From positions 62,001 to 126,000 of the forward strand of contig JAFKFH010000014.1 of the NCBI GenBank assembly GCA_017307375.1: 64,000 bases of DNA, read 5' to 3'. The stretch's first letter is position 1. The number at the start of each line of letters is the position of its first letter. This document shows positions 1,958 to 38,386 of the stretch, piece by piece. The DNA is from Alphaproteobacteria bacterium. Lineage in GTDB: Bacteria; Pseudomonadota; Alphaproteobacteria; Ferrovibrionales; Ferrovibrionaceae. A program made the position numbers and the translations under genes. The notes under the pieces are model-generated. The model saw only the letters and a program-made list of their open reading frames with translations. It ran no database searches and was not told where the DNA came from.

Positions 1958-2618
1958 ATTTATCCGGCCGCAATGCGGCCATGGCGAAGTCGATGACATG
2001 CCGGCGGCGCATCGCCACCGCCTTGGCGCTGTCGAGATTGGTGGCGAAGATCGCCGACAGCGTGCGGTTGTTCGAAAAGAAGAAATACGAGAGGCCGGCG
2101 ATCGAGATGTAGAACTGCACCGGATCCATGTCGCCGCGGAAGACGCCGTCGCGCATGCCCCGGTCCAGGGTTGCGGCAACCAGGCTGATCAGCGGCGAAT
2201 GCATCGCCGGCATGTCGGGCGAGGCACCGACATGGGCGGCGCCGTAGCGGTTCTCGTCGTTCAGCAGCGCGATGAATTCGGGATGTTCGGCCAGATAGTC
2301 GAACGAGAACCCGACCAGCCGCTCCATCGCCGCGGCCGGTGGCAGATCGGCCAGGGCCAGCGCCTTCTCGCGCGCGCGAATCTCCGAATAGACCTGCTCC
2401 AGCGCCGCGCGGAACAGATCGTCCTTGTTGCCGAAGTAGTGATAGACGAGCTGCTTGTTCACCCCGGCCCGCCGCGCGATCTCGTCGACCCGGGCCCCGG
2501 CCAGGCCCTTCTCGGCGAACTCGGTCACCGCCGCCCGCAACAGGGCCCGCCGGCTTGCCTCCGGATCCCGCTTGCCCTGCCGTTCGATCAGCGCCGTCCG
2601 GCGCTTTGTCTCGTCCAT
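1947..2618 (-). CDS. TetR/AcrR family transcriptional regulator
   Basis: About 223 residues with an N-terminal TetR helix-turn-helix (ARRAGVNKQLVYHYFGNKDDL) followed by an all-helical ligand-binding and dimerisation domain. The ATG at 2618 is preferred; the longer TTG start at 2642 would lie inside the upstream operator-like repeat and add a non-conserved tail. The gene is divergent from the binding protein gene at 2750 and upstream of the permease operon. Palindromes at both its ends suggest it represses itself, the binding protein and the permease operon, released by the transported compound or a derivative. Confidence 0.85.
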   Translation of the reverse strand: MDETKRRTALIERQGKRDPEASRRALLRAAVTEFAEKGLAGARVDEIARRAGVNKQLVYHYFGNKDDLFRAALEQVYSEIRAREKALALADLPPAAAMERLVGFSFDYLAEHPEFIALLNDENRYGAAHVGASPDMPAMHSPLISLVAATLDRGMRDGVFRGDMDPVQFYISIAGLSYFFFSNNRTLSAIFATNLDSAKAVAMRRRHVIDFAMAALRPDKSTN

Positions 2619-2635
2619 GGGAGTCGCTTGACTTT

Positions 2636-2653
2636 CAACCAACTGTTTGATTG
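2636..2653. promoter_or_regulatory. imperfect copy of the TetR palindrome
   Basis: The left half CAACCAACT matches the perfect palindrome at 1940-1957 exactly; the right half GTTTGATTG departs at three positions. It lies 18 bp upstream of the tetR ATG and about 97 bp upstream of the divergent binding protein start, a position suited to autorepression and repression of the divergent gene. Confidence 0.5.
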
Positions 2654-2749
2654 ATAATTAGCCCGTTCTGGGTGGAATGTTAACCGCTTTCTCGGGCCGC
2701 CGCGACGGCCGCGCGCGGGAAAGCCCACATGAGGGGAGACCGGCATCCA

Positions 2750-3754
2750 ATGAAGCTGTTCGCAACGACGGCAATCGCCCTGTCGCTGAGCCTGCCGCCG
2801 CTGATCCTGCCGCTGGCAGTGCAGGCAAAGGAAAAGGTCAGCATGGTGCTGAACTGGGTGCCGACCGCCGATCACTCGCCCTATTTCTACGCCCGCGAGA
2901 AAGGCTGGTACGACGAGGCCGGCATCGAGCTGACGATCGAGAACGGCATGGGCTCGGGCGCGGCCGCCCAGCGCGTCGGTGCCGGCACCACGCCGATCGG
3001 CATCGCCGATCTGGCGACCTCGCTGCTGGCCCGCGGCAAGGGTGCCAAGCTGACCGCGGTGATGACCGTCTATGCGAATTCGCCGCAAGGATTCTACTGG
3101 CTGAAATCGTCGGGCATCACCGGACCGAAGGATTTCCCGGGCCGCAAGATCGGCAACCCGCCCGGCGATGCCTCGCGGGTGATGTGGCCGGCCTTCGCCA
3201 AGAAGGTCGGCATCGACCCGGCCTCGGTCAACTTCGTCAATGTCAGCCCGCAGGCCAAGATGCCGTCGCTGAAATCGAAGGCGATCGACATCACCTCGGA
3301 TTTCTACAACGAGCACGACCTGAAGGTGCGCGAGTTCGGCGACGACCTGGGCTTTGTCGCCTGGCGCAATATCGGCCTCAATCCCTACGGCAACTCGATC
3401 ATCGTCAACAGCGATTACCTGGAGAAGAACAAGGCGCTGGTCGCCGCCTTCACCAAGGTGTCGCAGCGCGCCTTCGCGGCCTGCGTCGCCGAGATCGACC
3501 CCTGCCTGAACGCGCTGATCGCCAAGGTCTCCGGCCTCGACAAGGCCAACCAGTTGGACCAGTGGAAGCGCATCCTCGAACTGATGCGCGACCCGACGAC
3601 CACGTCGGTGGCACTCGGCGCCTTCAAGCCCGAGCGGGTCGCCGAGGATTACGACCTGGTGCAGACCTATTTCGGCCTGGAGCAGCCGTTCAAGCCCGAG
3701 AGCACCTTCACCAACGAGTTCCTGGATACCGCGATCAAGATGCCGGCCAAGTAA
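2750..3754 (+). CDS. ABC transporter substrate-binding protein, NMT1/THI5-like
   Basis: A 334-residue exported protein. The Sec signal peptide ends near VQA-KE (residue 26). The mature N-terminus (NWVPTADHSPYFYAREKGWY) is the typical opening of NMT1/THI5-type periplasmic binding proteins, which bind thiamine pyrimidine precursors, nitrate, alkanesulfonates or similar small molecules. The ATG at 2750 follows GAGGGGAG about 11 nt upstream. Its partner is most likely the permease at 1059-1871. The ligand cannot be read from sequence. Confidence 0.85.
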   Translation: MKLFATTAIALSLSLPPLILPLAVQAKEKVSMVLNWVPTADHSPYFYAREKGWYDEAGIELTIENGMGSGAAAQRVGAGTTPIGIADLATSLLARGKGAKLTAVMTVYANSPQGFYWLKSSGITGPKDFPGRKIGNPPGDASRVMWPAFAKKVGIDPASVNFVNVSPQAKMPSLKSKAIDITSDFYNEHDLKVREFGDDLGFVAWRNIGLNPYGNSIIVNSDYLEKNKALVAAFTKVSQRAFAACVAEIDPCLNALIAKVSGLDKANQLDQWKRILELMRDPTTTSVALGAFKPERVAEDYDLVQTYFGLEQPFKPESTFTNEFLDTAIKMPAK

Positions 3755-34373: not shown

Positions 34374-35549
34374 TCAGTCGCGGGCGAGCGTCATGGCAAT
34401 GCCCATGCCGCCGCCGATGCAGAGGGTGGCCAGACCCTTCTTGGCGTCGCGCTTCTGCATCTCGAACAGCAGCGTGCAGAGGACGCGGGCCCCCGAGGCG
34501 CCGATCGGATGGCCGATCGCGATCGCCCCGCCGTTGACGTTGACCTTGGCGGTATCCCAGCCGAGGTCCTTGTTCACCGCGCAGGCCTGGGCGGCGAAAG
34601 CCTCGTTGGCCTCTACCAGATCGAGATCGGCGGCCTTCCAGCCGGCGCGCTCGAGCGCCGCGCGGCTGGCCGGGATCGGACCCGAGCCCATGATCGCCGG
34701 ATCGACACCGGCCTGCGCCCAGGAAGCGATGCGGGCGAGCGGCGTGATGCCGCGGCGCTGGGCCTCGGCCGCGGTCATCAGCACGACGGCGGCGGCGCCG
34801 TCGTTGATGCCGGAGGCATTGGCCGCGGTGACCGTGCCGTCCTTCTGGAAGGCCGGGCGCAGCTTCTGCATCGTTTCGAGCGTGGCGTCGTGGCGGATGT
34901 ATTCGTCATCGGCGACGACCACGTCGCCCTTGCGGCCCTTGATGGTGACCGGAACGATCTCGTCCTTGAACTTGCCGGCCTTCTGCGCGGCCGACGCCTT
35001 CTGCTGGCTGGCCAGCGCGAATTCGTCCTGCTGCTCGCGGGTGATCTGCCACTTGGCCGCGACATTCTCGGCGGTATTGCCCATGTGGTAGCCGTTGAAG
35101 GCATCCCACAGGCCGTCCTTGATCATGGTGTCGACCATTTCGGCCGCGCCCATCTTGACCCCGCCACGCAGATACATCGCATGCGGCGCCTGGCTCATGC
35201 TTTCCTGGCCGCCGGCGACGACGATCGTGGAATCGCCGTTCTTGACCGCCTGGTAGCCGAGCGCGACCGCGCGCAGGCCCGAGCCGCACAGCATGTTGAC
35301 GCCCCAGGCCGGGATCTCGACCGGCAGGCCGGCGTTGATCGACGCCTGGCGGGCCGGGTTCTGCCCCTGCGCGGCCTGGAGGATCTGGCCCATGATGACT
35401 TCCGAAACCTCGGCCGGCGCGACGGCGGCGCGGCGCAGCGCCTCGGTGATCGCCACCTGGCCGAGATAGTGGGCCGGGACGCCCCCGAAGGCGCCGTTGA
35501 ACGAACCTACGGGCGTGCGCGCGGCGGCGGCGATGACGATATCGGTCAT
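34374..35549 (-). CDS. phaA: acetyl-CoA C-acetyltransferase
   Basis: A 391-residue thiolase with the nucleophilic cysteine in [11 protein letters not shown] (about residue 88), the [10 protein letters not shown] histidine and the C-terminal cysteine in CIGGGMGIA. It condenses two acetyl-CoA to acetoacetyl-CoA, the first PHB step. Its ATG overlaps the phaC stop as ATGA, so the synthase and thiolase are coupled. Confidence 0.96.
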
Positions 35550-36916
35550 GTGGTGAACTCCTGCTTGGCGGTTCGAGGGGGACGCTTGGGGCGCTTGTTC
35601 TTTGATTGTAATCTCCCGCCGCCACGATAGCGACCGGCCGGGGTCATGGACAAGGGGGGATTTTGCACTGCGGCATGAGGGCGCAGCCAGTCGGCCAGCG
35701 GCTGCCACAGCTGGGCCGCGGCCCGGCTGCCGACCACCATGCCGATATGGCCGAGCGGCGGCGCGATCTCGGTGACTGCGACGCCGCCCGAGGCGGCGCG
35801 TGTGCCGGCCGCCCGGGCCGAGCCCGGCGGCACGATGCGATCGTTGGCCGGTACCGCCAGCAGCAGCGGGCAGGCCAGCCGCGCGGGATCGACCACCTCG
35901 CCGTCGACCTGCCAGCCGAGCCTGGCGGTCGCGTTCTCGCCATACCATCCGATCAGGCAGTCGCGTGCCACGGCCGGCACCAGCGGCACACCGTCGTTGA
36001 GCCAGTCTTCGAGGGCGACGAAATCAGCGGCCCCCTGGCTGGCCTGGTCCATCGCCGCGAAGGCGGCGAACTTCTTGAGCGAAAGGGAAGGGTCGAGGCC
36101 GAGGAAGAAGGCCTGCAACGCGTCGACCGGCATCTCGCCGGCCAGCTTCAGCGAGGCTTCGATGCCGTCGCGGCCGGCCACCAGCAGGCGGCCCCGCCCC
36201 GCCCCGCCCTCGGCATGGAAATCCCAAGGTGTGGCCAGCAGCGCCAGCGCCGAGACCGCGTCGGAGCGGGCAAGCGCGAGGGCCAGGGCGAGATCACCGC
36301 CCATGCAGTAGCCGACGATCGGAACCGCCCCGCCATGCCGGGCCGTCAGATGGTCGAGGGCGGGAACCAGCCGCTGCAGGACATAGCCGCCGAGGTCGAG
36401 CGGGCGTTCGGCCGCCGTCGGGCTGCCCCAGTCGACGAGATAGGGATGGAAACCCTGGGTGCCGAGCCAGCGCAGCAGGCTGCGTTGGGCCGACAGGTCG
36501 AGCACATAGCCGCGGTTGACCAGCGAGGGCACGAACAGCACCGGCGGGCCGTCGCCGCCATAGTCCACCAGCCGGACGCCGCCGGCCGACCAGACCGCCG
36601 GCATGGGTGCGAGATCGCGGACATAGGGATGGTCGCGGTAGAGCCGGATGCCGTCGAGCATCGCCCGGAACCGGTGGCCGACCTCGGCCACCAGGGCGCG
36701 GGCGACTGCGTCGTCAGGGCTTCTTGCGAGCTCGGCTGCGAGGCTTCGGGCCTGGTCCCTCACGCTCGCGCTCCAGGCGATCAAGCCTAGCCTCGAGCTC
36801 GGCAAGGCGGCGAGCGAGCCCTGCAGGATCGTCAGCGCGCTGTTCAGATGCAGACCGAGCGGGCGCGGCCCCGGGCGGGTAGAAGGAGGCGAAGGGGAAG
36901 AGCTGGCCTGGCTCAT
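35546..36916 (-). CDS. phaC: PHB synthase-type alpha/beta hydrolase (PhaC-like)
   Basis: A 456-residue alpha/beta fold protein with the synthase box VGYCMGG (nucleophile Cys204), the acid in VPANDRIVP and the base in PLGHIGMV. It is shorter than class I PhaC (about 590) and longer than class III (about 355). The N-terminal RPLGLHL element seen in related alphaproteobacterial PhaC-like proteins supports the ATG at 36916, which means the first 203 nt overlap the upstream gene in another frame. A conservative alternative is GTG 36691. It polymerises hydroxyacyl-CoA; its neighbours phaA and phaB supply substrate. Confidence 0.88.
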
Positions 36917-37103
36917 GCGTCGTGCCCTGTCCCGGCTGCCCGCCGAAGGCGGCGAGGAAATCGGCCGACATCCGGCGCATGCCTTCCGCGGCCTCGGCCG
37001 CGGCGGCAGTCACCGTCGGGTCGGCGAGCGTCGCCGCCACCTGCTGTTGCCAGAGGTCGAGAAAGCGCCTCGCCAGCTCGGCAGGATCGGAGGTGTCGCT
37101 CAT
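36714..37103 (-). CDS. small PhaE-like or phasin-like partner of the PHB synthase
   Basis: About 129 residues. The N-terminal half (PAELARRFLDLWQQQVAA) resembles the start of PhaE/phasin-like proteins. The C-terminal half contains a leucine-arginine coiled coil ([20 protein letters not shown]) and a basic tail, as in PHA synthase accessory subunits. It precedes the synthase gene and overlaps its 5' end by 203 nt out of frame. A class III-like PhaE role or a phasin role are both possible; sequence is too divergent to decide. Confidence 0.65.
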   Translation of the reverse strand: MSDTSDPAELARRFLDLWQQQVAATLADPTVTAAAAEAAEGMRRMSADFLAAFGGQPGQGTTHEPGQLFPFASFYPPGAAPARSASEQRADDPAGLARRLAELEARLDRLEREREGPGPKPRSRARKKP

Positions 37104-37152
37104 TGCGGGACTATACACCGGGTCGTGGCCCGGCGCCCAGGGCATCGGTGGT

Positions 37153-37485
37153 TCAGCGTTCCGCCCGGCGGGTCGTCATCGGCGAGTTGTCGTTGACCAT
37201 GTAAAGCACGGTTTCGCCGTTCTTCTTGCGGCAGCCGAAATAGACGTCCGGCTGGATCGTGTAGGTGCATTCCATGCCGTTGACGACAAAACGCTGGTTG
37301 GCGAGCTTGGCGTTGTCGTTGGCCGCGGCATCGGGCACGACCAGCTTGGTCACGCCGCGATACTCGATCTCGCGCGTCGTCGGCGACAACGCCGCCCACA
37401 CCCCGCCGGCCACCGTCATGGCGATCATCAGGCTGAGAATACCCAGCCAAATTATCGAAAATGATAGACGATTTGCGCGCCGCAC
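37153..37485 (-). CDS. hypothetical membrane-anchored protein
   Basis: About 110 residues: one transmembrane helix near the N-terminus (SIIWLGILSLMIAMTVAGGVW) followed by an extracytoplasmic domain with two cysteines in TYTIQPDVYFGC and VNGMECT that could form a disulfide. The start is uncertain: GTG 37485 with GGGGGCGG upstream, or TTG codons at 37500/37503. It lies 49 nt upstream of the phaE-like gene on the same strand and may be the first gene of the pha operon. No family recognised. Confidence 0.55.
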   Translation of the reverse strand: MRRANRLSFSIIWLGILSLMIAMTVAGGVWAALSPTTREIEYRGVTKLVVPDAAANDNAKLANQRFVVNGMECTYTIQPDVYFGCRKKNGETVLYMVNDNSPMTTRRAER

Positions 37486-37669
37486 GGCTGCCGCCCCCAA
37501 CAATATTCAGGCGGACACTAGCAAAGATAAATGGGTCGTCAAATGTTTATAAGTCTTGGGAATTCCTCAAATTATTCCTAAATGTCGAATCGATTTTCGA
37601 CGAACACCATCCCTGTCGCGACGGAGGCAGCGTCGGGGGGAATCGAGCGGTTTTGCGCCGCCGAGACGG

Positions 37670-37696
37670 CTGCGCAGCAAGCCCCTTGCGCCGCAA
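37670..37696. promoter_or_regulatory. TGC-rich inverted motifs, candidate PhaR sites
   Basis: CTGCGCAG (37670-37677, perfect palindrome) and TTGC-GCC-GCAA (37686-37696, arms of 4 with 3 between) lie 58-84 nt upstream of the phaR TTG start, between the divergent phaR and the pha operon. Known alphaproteobacterial PhaR sites are TGC/GCA-rich inverted repeats, so autoregulation and control of the operon are plausible. Confidence 0.4.
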
Positions 37697-37753
37697 CAGG
37701 CCGGGGGCGATAGTACCGCCTCAATAAAGTCCTTCAGGGTGGAGGTACGCCCA

Positions 37754-38386
37754 TTGGCTGAACCCAACGAAAAGCCGCGGGAAGCGGCGCCGCAGGCCGA
37801 ACCGATCACGATCAAGAAATACGCGAACCGGCGGCTCTACAATACGGCGACCTCTTCCTACGTCACCTTGGACCATCTGTGCCAGATGGTGAAGGACGGC
37901 AAGGAATTCGTCGTCTACGACGCCAAGACCGGCGACGACATCACCCGCACGGTGCTGACCCAGATCATCTTCGAGGAAGAATCGAAGGGGCAGAACCTGT
38001 TGCCGATCTCGTTCCTGCGCAACCTGATCTCCTTCTACGGCGACAGCCTGCAATCGCTGGTGCCGGGATACCTCGACGTCTCGATGTCGTCGTTTTCCAA
38101 GAACCAGGAGCAGATGCGCAGCTACATGACCGAGGCGCTGAACGGGATGTTCCCCTTCGCCCGCTTCGAGGACATGGGGCGGCACAACATGGCGATGTTC
38201 CAGCGCGCCATGTCGATGTTCAACCCGTTCGCCGCCGCGGGCGGTCAGGGCGCACCGGCTGCCGGCACCAAGCCGGCGGATGCGGCCAAGCCCGCCCAGG
38301 CCGCGGAAACCGAGCTGTCGGAACTGCGCGCCCAGGTCGACCTGATGCGCGAGCAACTCGACAACCTCGCGCGCAAGAAGGACTGA
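37754..38386 (+). CDS. phaR: polyhydroxyalkanoate synthesis repressor PhaR
   Basis: About 210 residues. The PHB/PHA accumulation DNA-binding domain is unmistakable (ITIKKYANRRLYNTATSSYV, then DAKTGDDITRTVLTQIIFEEES), followed by a granule-binding region and an Ala/Pro linker with a C-terminal coiled coil. The TTG at 37754 is chosen since GGAGG lies 8 nt upstream; no ATG fits. PhaR represses phasin and PHA genes and is released by binding nascent PHB. It is divergent from the pha operon. Confidence 0.95.
   Translation: MAEPNEKPREAAPQAEPITIKKYANRRLYNTATSSYVTLDHLCQMVKDGKEFVVYDAKTGDDITRTVLTQIIFEEESKGQNLLPISFLRNLISFYGDSLQSLVPGYLDVSMSSFSKNQEQMRSYMTEALNGMFPFARFEDMGRHNMAMFQRAMSMFNPFAAAGGQGAPAAGTKPADAAKPAQAAETELSELRAQVDLMREQLDNLARKKD

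Follow-up and report, generated by a model that had tools for sequence, protein, structure and literature searches.

A conserved out-of-frame overlap of about 200 nt between a small coiled-coil gene and phaC in Alphaproteobacteria, with both frames probably coding

Introduction

In class III polyhydroxyalkanoate (PHA) synthase systems, the genes of the partner PhaE and of the synthase PhaC are adjacent and the partner gene comes first. Here we analyse a 203-nt stretch in which a gene for a small protein, called mini-PhaE below, and a phaC gene overlap out of frame on the same strand. It lies in a 64,000-nt stretch of DNA (the window) from an alphaproteobacterium of the family Ferrovibrionaceae (assembly GCA_017307375.1, contig JAFKFH010000014.1, positions 62,001 to 126,000). 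An earlier reading of these letters, made without database searches (the sequence-only reading), had proposed this overlap, and its limits proved exact to the nucleotide. Judging from their conservation among relatives, both frames are very probably real and functional. By analogy, class III PhaE-PhaC is the closest functional parallel of the pair: the gene order is the same, the core of the window PhaC is closest to TIGR01836, and mini-PhaE, like PhaE, ends in a coiled coil followed by a basic tail. However, mini-PhaE has 90-220 aa where class III PhaE has 350-430, lacks the PF09712 domain and shows no sequence homology to PhaE beyond a weak coiled-coil match. Class III genes also do not share the overlap of about 200 nt, and the PhaC described here carries an additional arm at its N-terminus and falls far short of the TIGR01836 cut-off.

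Two kinds of described gene junction can be compared with this one. In a manual survey of 2008, all 715 co-directional overlaps of more than 60 bp were judged to be misannotations, and the longest such overlap judged real, holD-rimI of Enterobacteria, measured 32-56 bp (Palleja et al. 2008, PMC2478687); longer overlaps have been accepted in later work (PMC8665328). The present pair resembles holD-rimI in being on the same strand and out of frame, with both proteins conserved, but it spans roughly 160-290 nt and occurs across much of a class, in line with the earlier remark that an overlap this long is uncommon. Its length in the window, 203 = 3k+2, corresponds to what is termed phase 1, the commoner phase among long overlaps (PMC2542354). 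With the ATGA/TGATG coupled pairs (PMC10666635) it has in common that the genes are neighbours in an operon and likely partners, but here the stop and the start are about 200 nt apart; an ATGA/TGATG junction is found in a few relatives devoid of the long overlap.

Results

Orthologs of phaC were collected from three sources: relatives, GTDB genomes and a class-wide sample of Alphaproteobacteria, in which 157 of 386 genomes gave an ortholog at E 1e-40. As some genomes were present twice, near-identical DNA was removed, leaving 148 overlap cases. In 99% of these non-redundant orthologs the second frame runs uninterrupted to its stop, against 55% after synonymous recoding of phaC. Its conservation exceeds the recoding null by +1.32 BLOSUM units per column in codons 1-25 after the RPL anchor of phaC and by +0.76 in codons 26-50, but by only +0.06 in codons 51-75, which lie past the overlap in most cases, and by 0.08-0.37 further downstream. 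Since plain recoding alone also raised the +1 frame, these windows downstream in phaC serve as the control, and by that standard the conservation of the second frame is clearly above the null only inside the overlap.

Eight sets of closely related sequences served to measure selection; two of these groups are Ferrovibrio, from the window's own family. Variable four-fold sites of phaC are rarer inside the overlap (45/223) than outside it (582/1466) and this holds in all eight groups; the p value of 7e-9 is a guide, sites in one codon column not being fully independent. The rate of changes that are silent in phaC but alter the second frame is 0.053 where the coiled coil is encoded, rises to 0.125 in the part for the tail and reaches 0.142 outside the overlap. 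Compared with the rest of phaC, such changes are rarer by a factor of 2.7 where they affect the coiled coil. The second-frame dNN/dNS of the coiled-coil part is 0.71 (0.42-1.18), compared to 1.42 (1.23-1.64) in the non-overlapping control, and the phaC-frame dNN/dSN inside the overlap, 0.56 (0.41-0.74), indicates purifying selection. Selection is thus clear in the phaC frame and, set against the control, in that part of the second frame which encodes the coiled coil, but not in the tail part. This is the comparison of synonymous and nonsynonymous change that the sequence-only reading had called for, and both frames came out of it constrained, the second in its coiled-coil part and with respect to the control; neither frame was found to be unconserved. 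Together, the openness, the excess of conservation and the suppressed synonymous change bear out its view that both frames are coding.

It had also expected rare codons under this double constraint, naming AGG, AGA and CTA, whose frequencies per 1000 are 4.0, 0.5 and 0.4 in 41 window ORFs (open reading frames) chosen by length and third-position GC. Codons below 4 per 1000 are indeed enriched in the overlap in both frames: in phaC they account for 11 of the 67 codons inside the overlap and 22 of the 388 that follow, in mini-phaE for 16 of the 67 inside and 5 of the 63 that precede it.

The product of phaC has TIGR01836 as its best NCBIfam match (E 7e-42), with 143.7 bits for a curated cut-off of 365.3; by this score it is related to class III yet outside the curated class. 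It matches the catalytic domains of solved PhaC structures and has the general marks of a PhaC, a lipase-type box with the catalytic Cys together with Asp and His (residues 202-207, D359 and H390), all invariant in 21 diverse orthologs. In the same orthologs R18, P19, L20, H23 and L24 are invariant, as was to be expected from the earlier statement that an RPLGLHL element recurs in related synthases. The longer motif GPRPLxLHL, encoded by the overlap, is invariant or nearly so among phaC orthologs and is also present in lineages without the overlap, and is therefore no by-product of the second frame. No orthologous synthase was found to start near GTG 36691, upstream of which this conserved motif lies, and the motif and the purifying selection in the overlap exclude that GTG as the sole phaC start. 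In the AlphaFold model, PhaC residues 1-49 are of low confidence, short helices excepted. The genome holds two more phaC-like genes (G000:C5:169530-169889 and G000:C38:230949-231293), the window synthase being one of three.

For mini-PhaE, an AlphaFold model built on 46 sequences gives helices at residues 7-27 and 29-52; an unstructured linker leads from these to a helix at 93-115 that is predicted with confidence (pLDDT 80-96 by block) and is followed by a basic, unstructured tail. This fits the coiled coil with a basic tail earlier proposed for the end of the upstream frame. The overlap encodes this last helix and the tail, whereas the N-terminal domain (N-domain) is encoded outside it. Hence the shared DNA, which in the other frame specifies the low-confidence PhaC arm, encodes simple or flexible parts of both proteins. 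The N-domain profile has the consensus DLxxLARRYLDLWQxQxxAxAADPxLAxxM, and M1, L10, A11 and W18 are invariant across the 46 members.

Neither the window protein nor its 45 relatives matched any Pfam or NCBIfam family, the PhaE models PF09712 and TIGR01834 included, and PF09712 had no match anywhere in the genome. Searched against the sequences of solved structures, the mini-PhaE profile found generic coiled coils only; a PADLOC search with the small protein gave nothing convincing. Alignment to canonical PhaE with hhalign reached 14% probability, a weak match over 24 coiled-coil columns, and the N-domain profile scores canonical PhaE no higher than shuffled sequences. By these comparisons mini-PhaE is a working label, describing position and layout and not a sequence relation; of the earlier term PhaE-like, the part referring to position and layout stands, and the part implying sequence kinship does not extend beyond the coiled coil. 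An N-terminal likeness to PhaE in L211 and L212 (DFETLARQYFGAWGDAL) was rejected, as it failed to exceed shuffled sequences. In another alphaproteobacterium (L228), a non-overlapping small gene (about 1985-2387) precedes a different phaC (2486-3556); its C-terminal part matches PF09712, so that short forms of PhaE do exist.

A search of 205 phaC loci with the N-domain profile gave a match ahead of phaC in 186. The ORF of 166 such loci shares the window's frame, and its stop lies over 60 nt into the aligned phaC. Fourteen others keep the frame with a stop closer to the residue at which the phaC alignment begins; about ten of them merely have an alignment that starts late, and at least three are truly short (L150, L162, L193). 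The last six rows, from the four genomes G044, G058, G112 and Oceanibacterium, are in the other frame and stop where phaC starts. Counted from the nearest plausible phaC start, the overlap in the 148 cases has a median of 209 nt (159-286 nt, 5th-95th percentiles), and the frame relation is constant although the linker between N-domain and phaC varies greatly in length. As judged from these loci, the arrangement is common to much of the class Alphaproteobacteria and the overlap is genuine and old.

The long overlap is missing from L030, L162, L175 and L193 (one family) and from L011, L072, L150 and L134. In such lineages the small gene retains the N-domain without the coiled coil, or is not detected, and in some it meets phaC in a 1-4 nt junction; a coiled coil that can go while the N-domain stays would be useful but dispensable. 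A quick phaC tree has the overlap on both early and late branches, and the best-supported group, of nine rows, has mostly lost it; repeated loss fits better than repeated gain, with a tree root that is not firm. In L116 (G036) the whole of a small coiled-coil gene is upstream of a phaC without the N-terminal arm, and there is no overlap. This state could be either a loss or a relic predating the overprinting; a secondary extension of PhaC over a pre-existing PhaE was considered from it, but the quick tree does not place L116 firmly.

The two genes differ in their start signals. At the mini-PhaE ATG, Shine-Dalgarno (SD) pairing in the relatives does not rise above background (median -1.7 kcal/mol, against -2.5 at random). 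Instead, a -10-like hexamer (TATACT, TATAGT or TATAAT) stands shortly before this ATG, mostly by 6-9 bases, in 110 of 162 starts, compared to 1.9 in shuffles, 1-4 in neighbouring windows and 1/162 at phaC ATGs. Among the starts aligned on the hexamer, a -35 element at 17-18 nt spacing has at least four matches in 53/108, against 10 in shuffles. This spacing would put the transcription start at or beside the A of the ATG, the placement that defines a leaderless mRNA; on these sequence signals alone, mini-PhaE is likely to start on leaderless mRNA in most lineages.

At the phaC start, SD pairing has a median of -6.3 kcal/mol in the relatives against -2.5 at random coding positions, and 55% of starts reach -6 kcal/mol or lower, against 12% of the background, a comparison biased upward by the choice of start partly on SD. 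An ATG in the phaC frame lies upstream of the RPL anchor in 118/148 loci, compared to 17/148 in the control frame, and phaC has its own start codon in 134/148. This enrichment argues for initiation of its own, and separate initiation of mini-phaE and phaC is strongly suggested by these signals. The sequence-only reading had held that the overlap would fix the ratio of partner to synthase. This finds no support, in view of the separate start signals and of the distance: termination-reinitiation operates with a stop at -8 to +10 nt of the start, a range of about 20 nt (PMC10666635), and cannot be the mechanism where the mini-phaE stop lies about 200 nt (150-250) past the phaC start. Ribosomes that cross the phaC start from mini-phaE could nevertheless help or hinder phaC translation.

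The features of the locus are collected in Table 1; mini-phaE, phaC and phaA make up one pha operon.

Table 1. Features of the mini-phaE/phaC locus, in window coordinates
Feature	Position	Strand	Remarks
mini-phaE ORF	36714..37103	minus	ATG 37103, alternative ATG 37145, stop 36714; 129 aa; domain order N-domain (LARRFLDLWQQQ), linker, coiled coil, basic tail
phaC	35546..36916	minus	ATG 36916; 456-aa PHA synthase, class III-like core, lipase-type box GYCMGG
Dual-coding overlap mini-phaE/phaC	36714..36916	minus	203 nt, out of frame
RPLGLHL element of phaC, residues 18-24	36845..36865	minus	R, P, L, H, L invariant in 21 orthologs
mini-PhaE coiled-coil helix, residues 93-115	36759..36827	minus	AlphaFold helix; entirely within overlap
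mini-PhaE N-terminal helix, residues 7-27	37023..37085	minus	AlphaFold; beyond overlap
-10-like TATAGT	37110..37115	minus	6 nt upstream of mini-PhaE ATG 37103
-35 position	37134..37139	minus	TGGGCG, by eye, 3/6 matches, weak
SD-like stretch (GGGACAGGG) upstream of phaC ATG	36925..36933	minus	weak; -5.4 kcal/mol
phaA thiolase	34374..35546	minus	1-nt stop/start overlap with phaC
ORF with divergent phaR	37556..38386	plus	TIGR01848, 153.9 bits, cut-off 109; family match from residue 86

Between mini-phaE and phaR lies an ORF of 116 aa with one likely membrane helix (37153-37503, minus strand).

Discussion

We propose that the 203-nt stretch is a dual-coding overlap within an operon of mini-phaE, phaC and phaA, the upstream frame specifying the coiled coil and basic tail of mini-PhaE and the downstream frame the N-terminal arm of PhaC. 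Mini-PhaE would be translated from a leaderless mRNA, with its promoter directly before the ATG, and the initiation of phaC would be a separate event, at an internal start that shows SD-like pairing. The ribosomes of mini-phaE would have to traverse the phaC start, and through the overlap phaC translation may be coupled to that of mini-phaE or disturbed by it; the overlap could set no partner to synthase ratio through termination-reinitiation. By analogy with short partners of the PhaE, PhaR and PhaM type, mini-PhaE would bind PhaC or the nascent granule. We regard this explanation as a whole, that is the overlap, the two starts and the partner role as its most conjectural step, as distinctly probable; the partner role taken by itself is favoured less strongly, as the better guess.

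Several observations weigh against this explanation. The second-frame dNN/dNS of the whole overlap, 0.88 (0.64-1.25), is not below 1 by itself; what supports the second frame is its comparison with the control, together with its deep conservation. The basic tail is under little constraint, and the selection figures come from relatives outside the window's own genus. A few lineages have neither overlap nor coiled coil and yet keep the N-domain and the PhaC arm. Lastly, the -35 element of the window is weak, and a promoter scan did not list the -10-like site at 37110-37115.

Could the second frame be open by chance, in GC-rich DNA, with an upstream gene that ends, or matters, only before phaC? 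Spurious ORFs of great length do occur in high-GC genomes, more than half of the recoded sequences are open and a few relatives keep the N-domain alone. But the openness of the real sequences is almost complete, nine in ten of the N-domain loci have the same frame, the excess of conservation is confined to the overlap and synonymous change is suppressed there; this alternative is largely refuted already and very improbable. We give slightly less credit still to a phaC that truly starts at GTG 36691 or later, leaving the stretch to the upstream frame, in spite of the fact that long annotated overlaps are mostly due to mispredicted starts (PMC2478687) and that the PhaC arm is modelled with low confidence. 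The near-invariant motif before position 36691, shared with lineages that lack the overlap, the purifying selection in the phaC frame and the start codon present in the great majority of loci all speak for the longer PhaC. The frame relation would also permit programmed +1 frameshifting from mini-phaE into phaC, producing one fused protein. This we consider just as improbable, given the conserved start codon and the SD-like pairing of phaC; no shared slippery site was noticed, although no systematic search for one was made.

The most serious alternative accepts that both genes are real and overlapping but denies that the small protein is a synthase partner; it might instead act as a regulator, for instance, or bind granules or DNA through its basic tail. 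The lack of a family match and of a sequence relation to PhaE fits with this, and the tail is like those of granule- and nucleoid-binding PHA proteins, in composition only. However, the small gene lies directly before phaC in nearly all orthologs, and synthases of the class III kind usually adjoin a partner gene, as in the phaE-phaC pair of Rhizobium. A role other than partner is unlikely, but it deserves far more weight than the three preceding alternatives, and a role as synthase partner is preferred.

Long same-strand overlaps in bacteria are widely dismissed as annotation errors; here is a case of roughly 200 nt with selection in both frames, whose origin, persistence and loss can be studied in many independent lineages, several having lost it. 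It would add a candidate partner for a group of PHA synthases whose only annotation is alpha/beta fold hydrolase, some of them from organisms in culture, Azospirillum brasilense Sp7 being one. If phaC is cloned from its own start codon, the small gene is cut short, and earlier expression of such a synthase alone may have missed the partner. We found no paper describing the mini-phaE/phaC overlap in the open-access literature. With about even odds, the locus may represent a new, unannotated family of small PHA-synthase partners across Alphaproteobacteria, encoded by a leaderless first gene and with a functional coiled coil overprinted on the N-terminal arm of the synthase; it would then be among the longest and most widely conserved same-strand overlaps of bacteria, with two modes of initiation on one mRNA.

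The Azospirillum loci illustrate how the small gene may go unnoticed. In five plasmids (L234, L235, L237, L238 and L239, that of Sp7 among them) the small ORF has 165-180 aa and overlaps phaC by 230 nt. It is missing from their gene tables in PLSDB, a table incomplete by its own account, which list phaR, a gap and phaC, the last named only as an alpha/beta fold hydrolase; this is suggestive of its absence from RefSeq. Granules of A. brasilense disappeared on loss of a phbC gene that lies on the strand complementary to phaAB (PMC10383645) and is thus probably another copy. The synthase at the overlap locus of this species, itself of the phbCAB type, may be accessory there.
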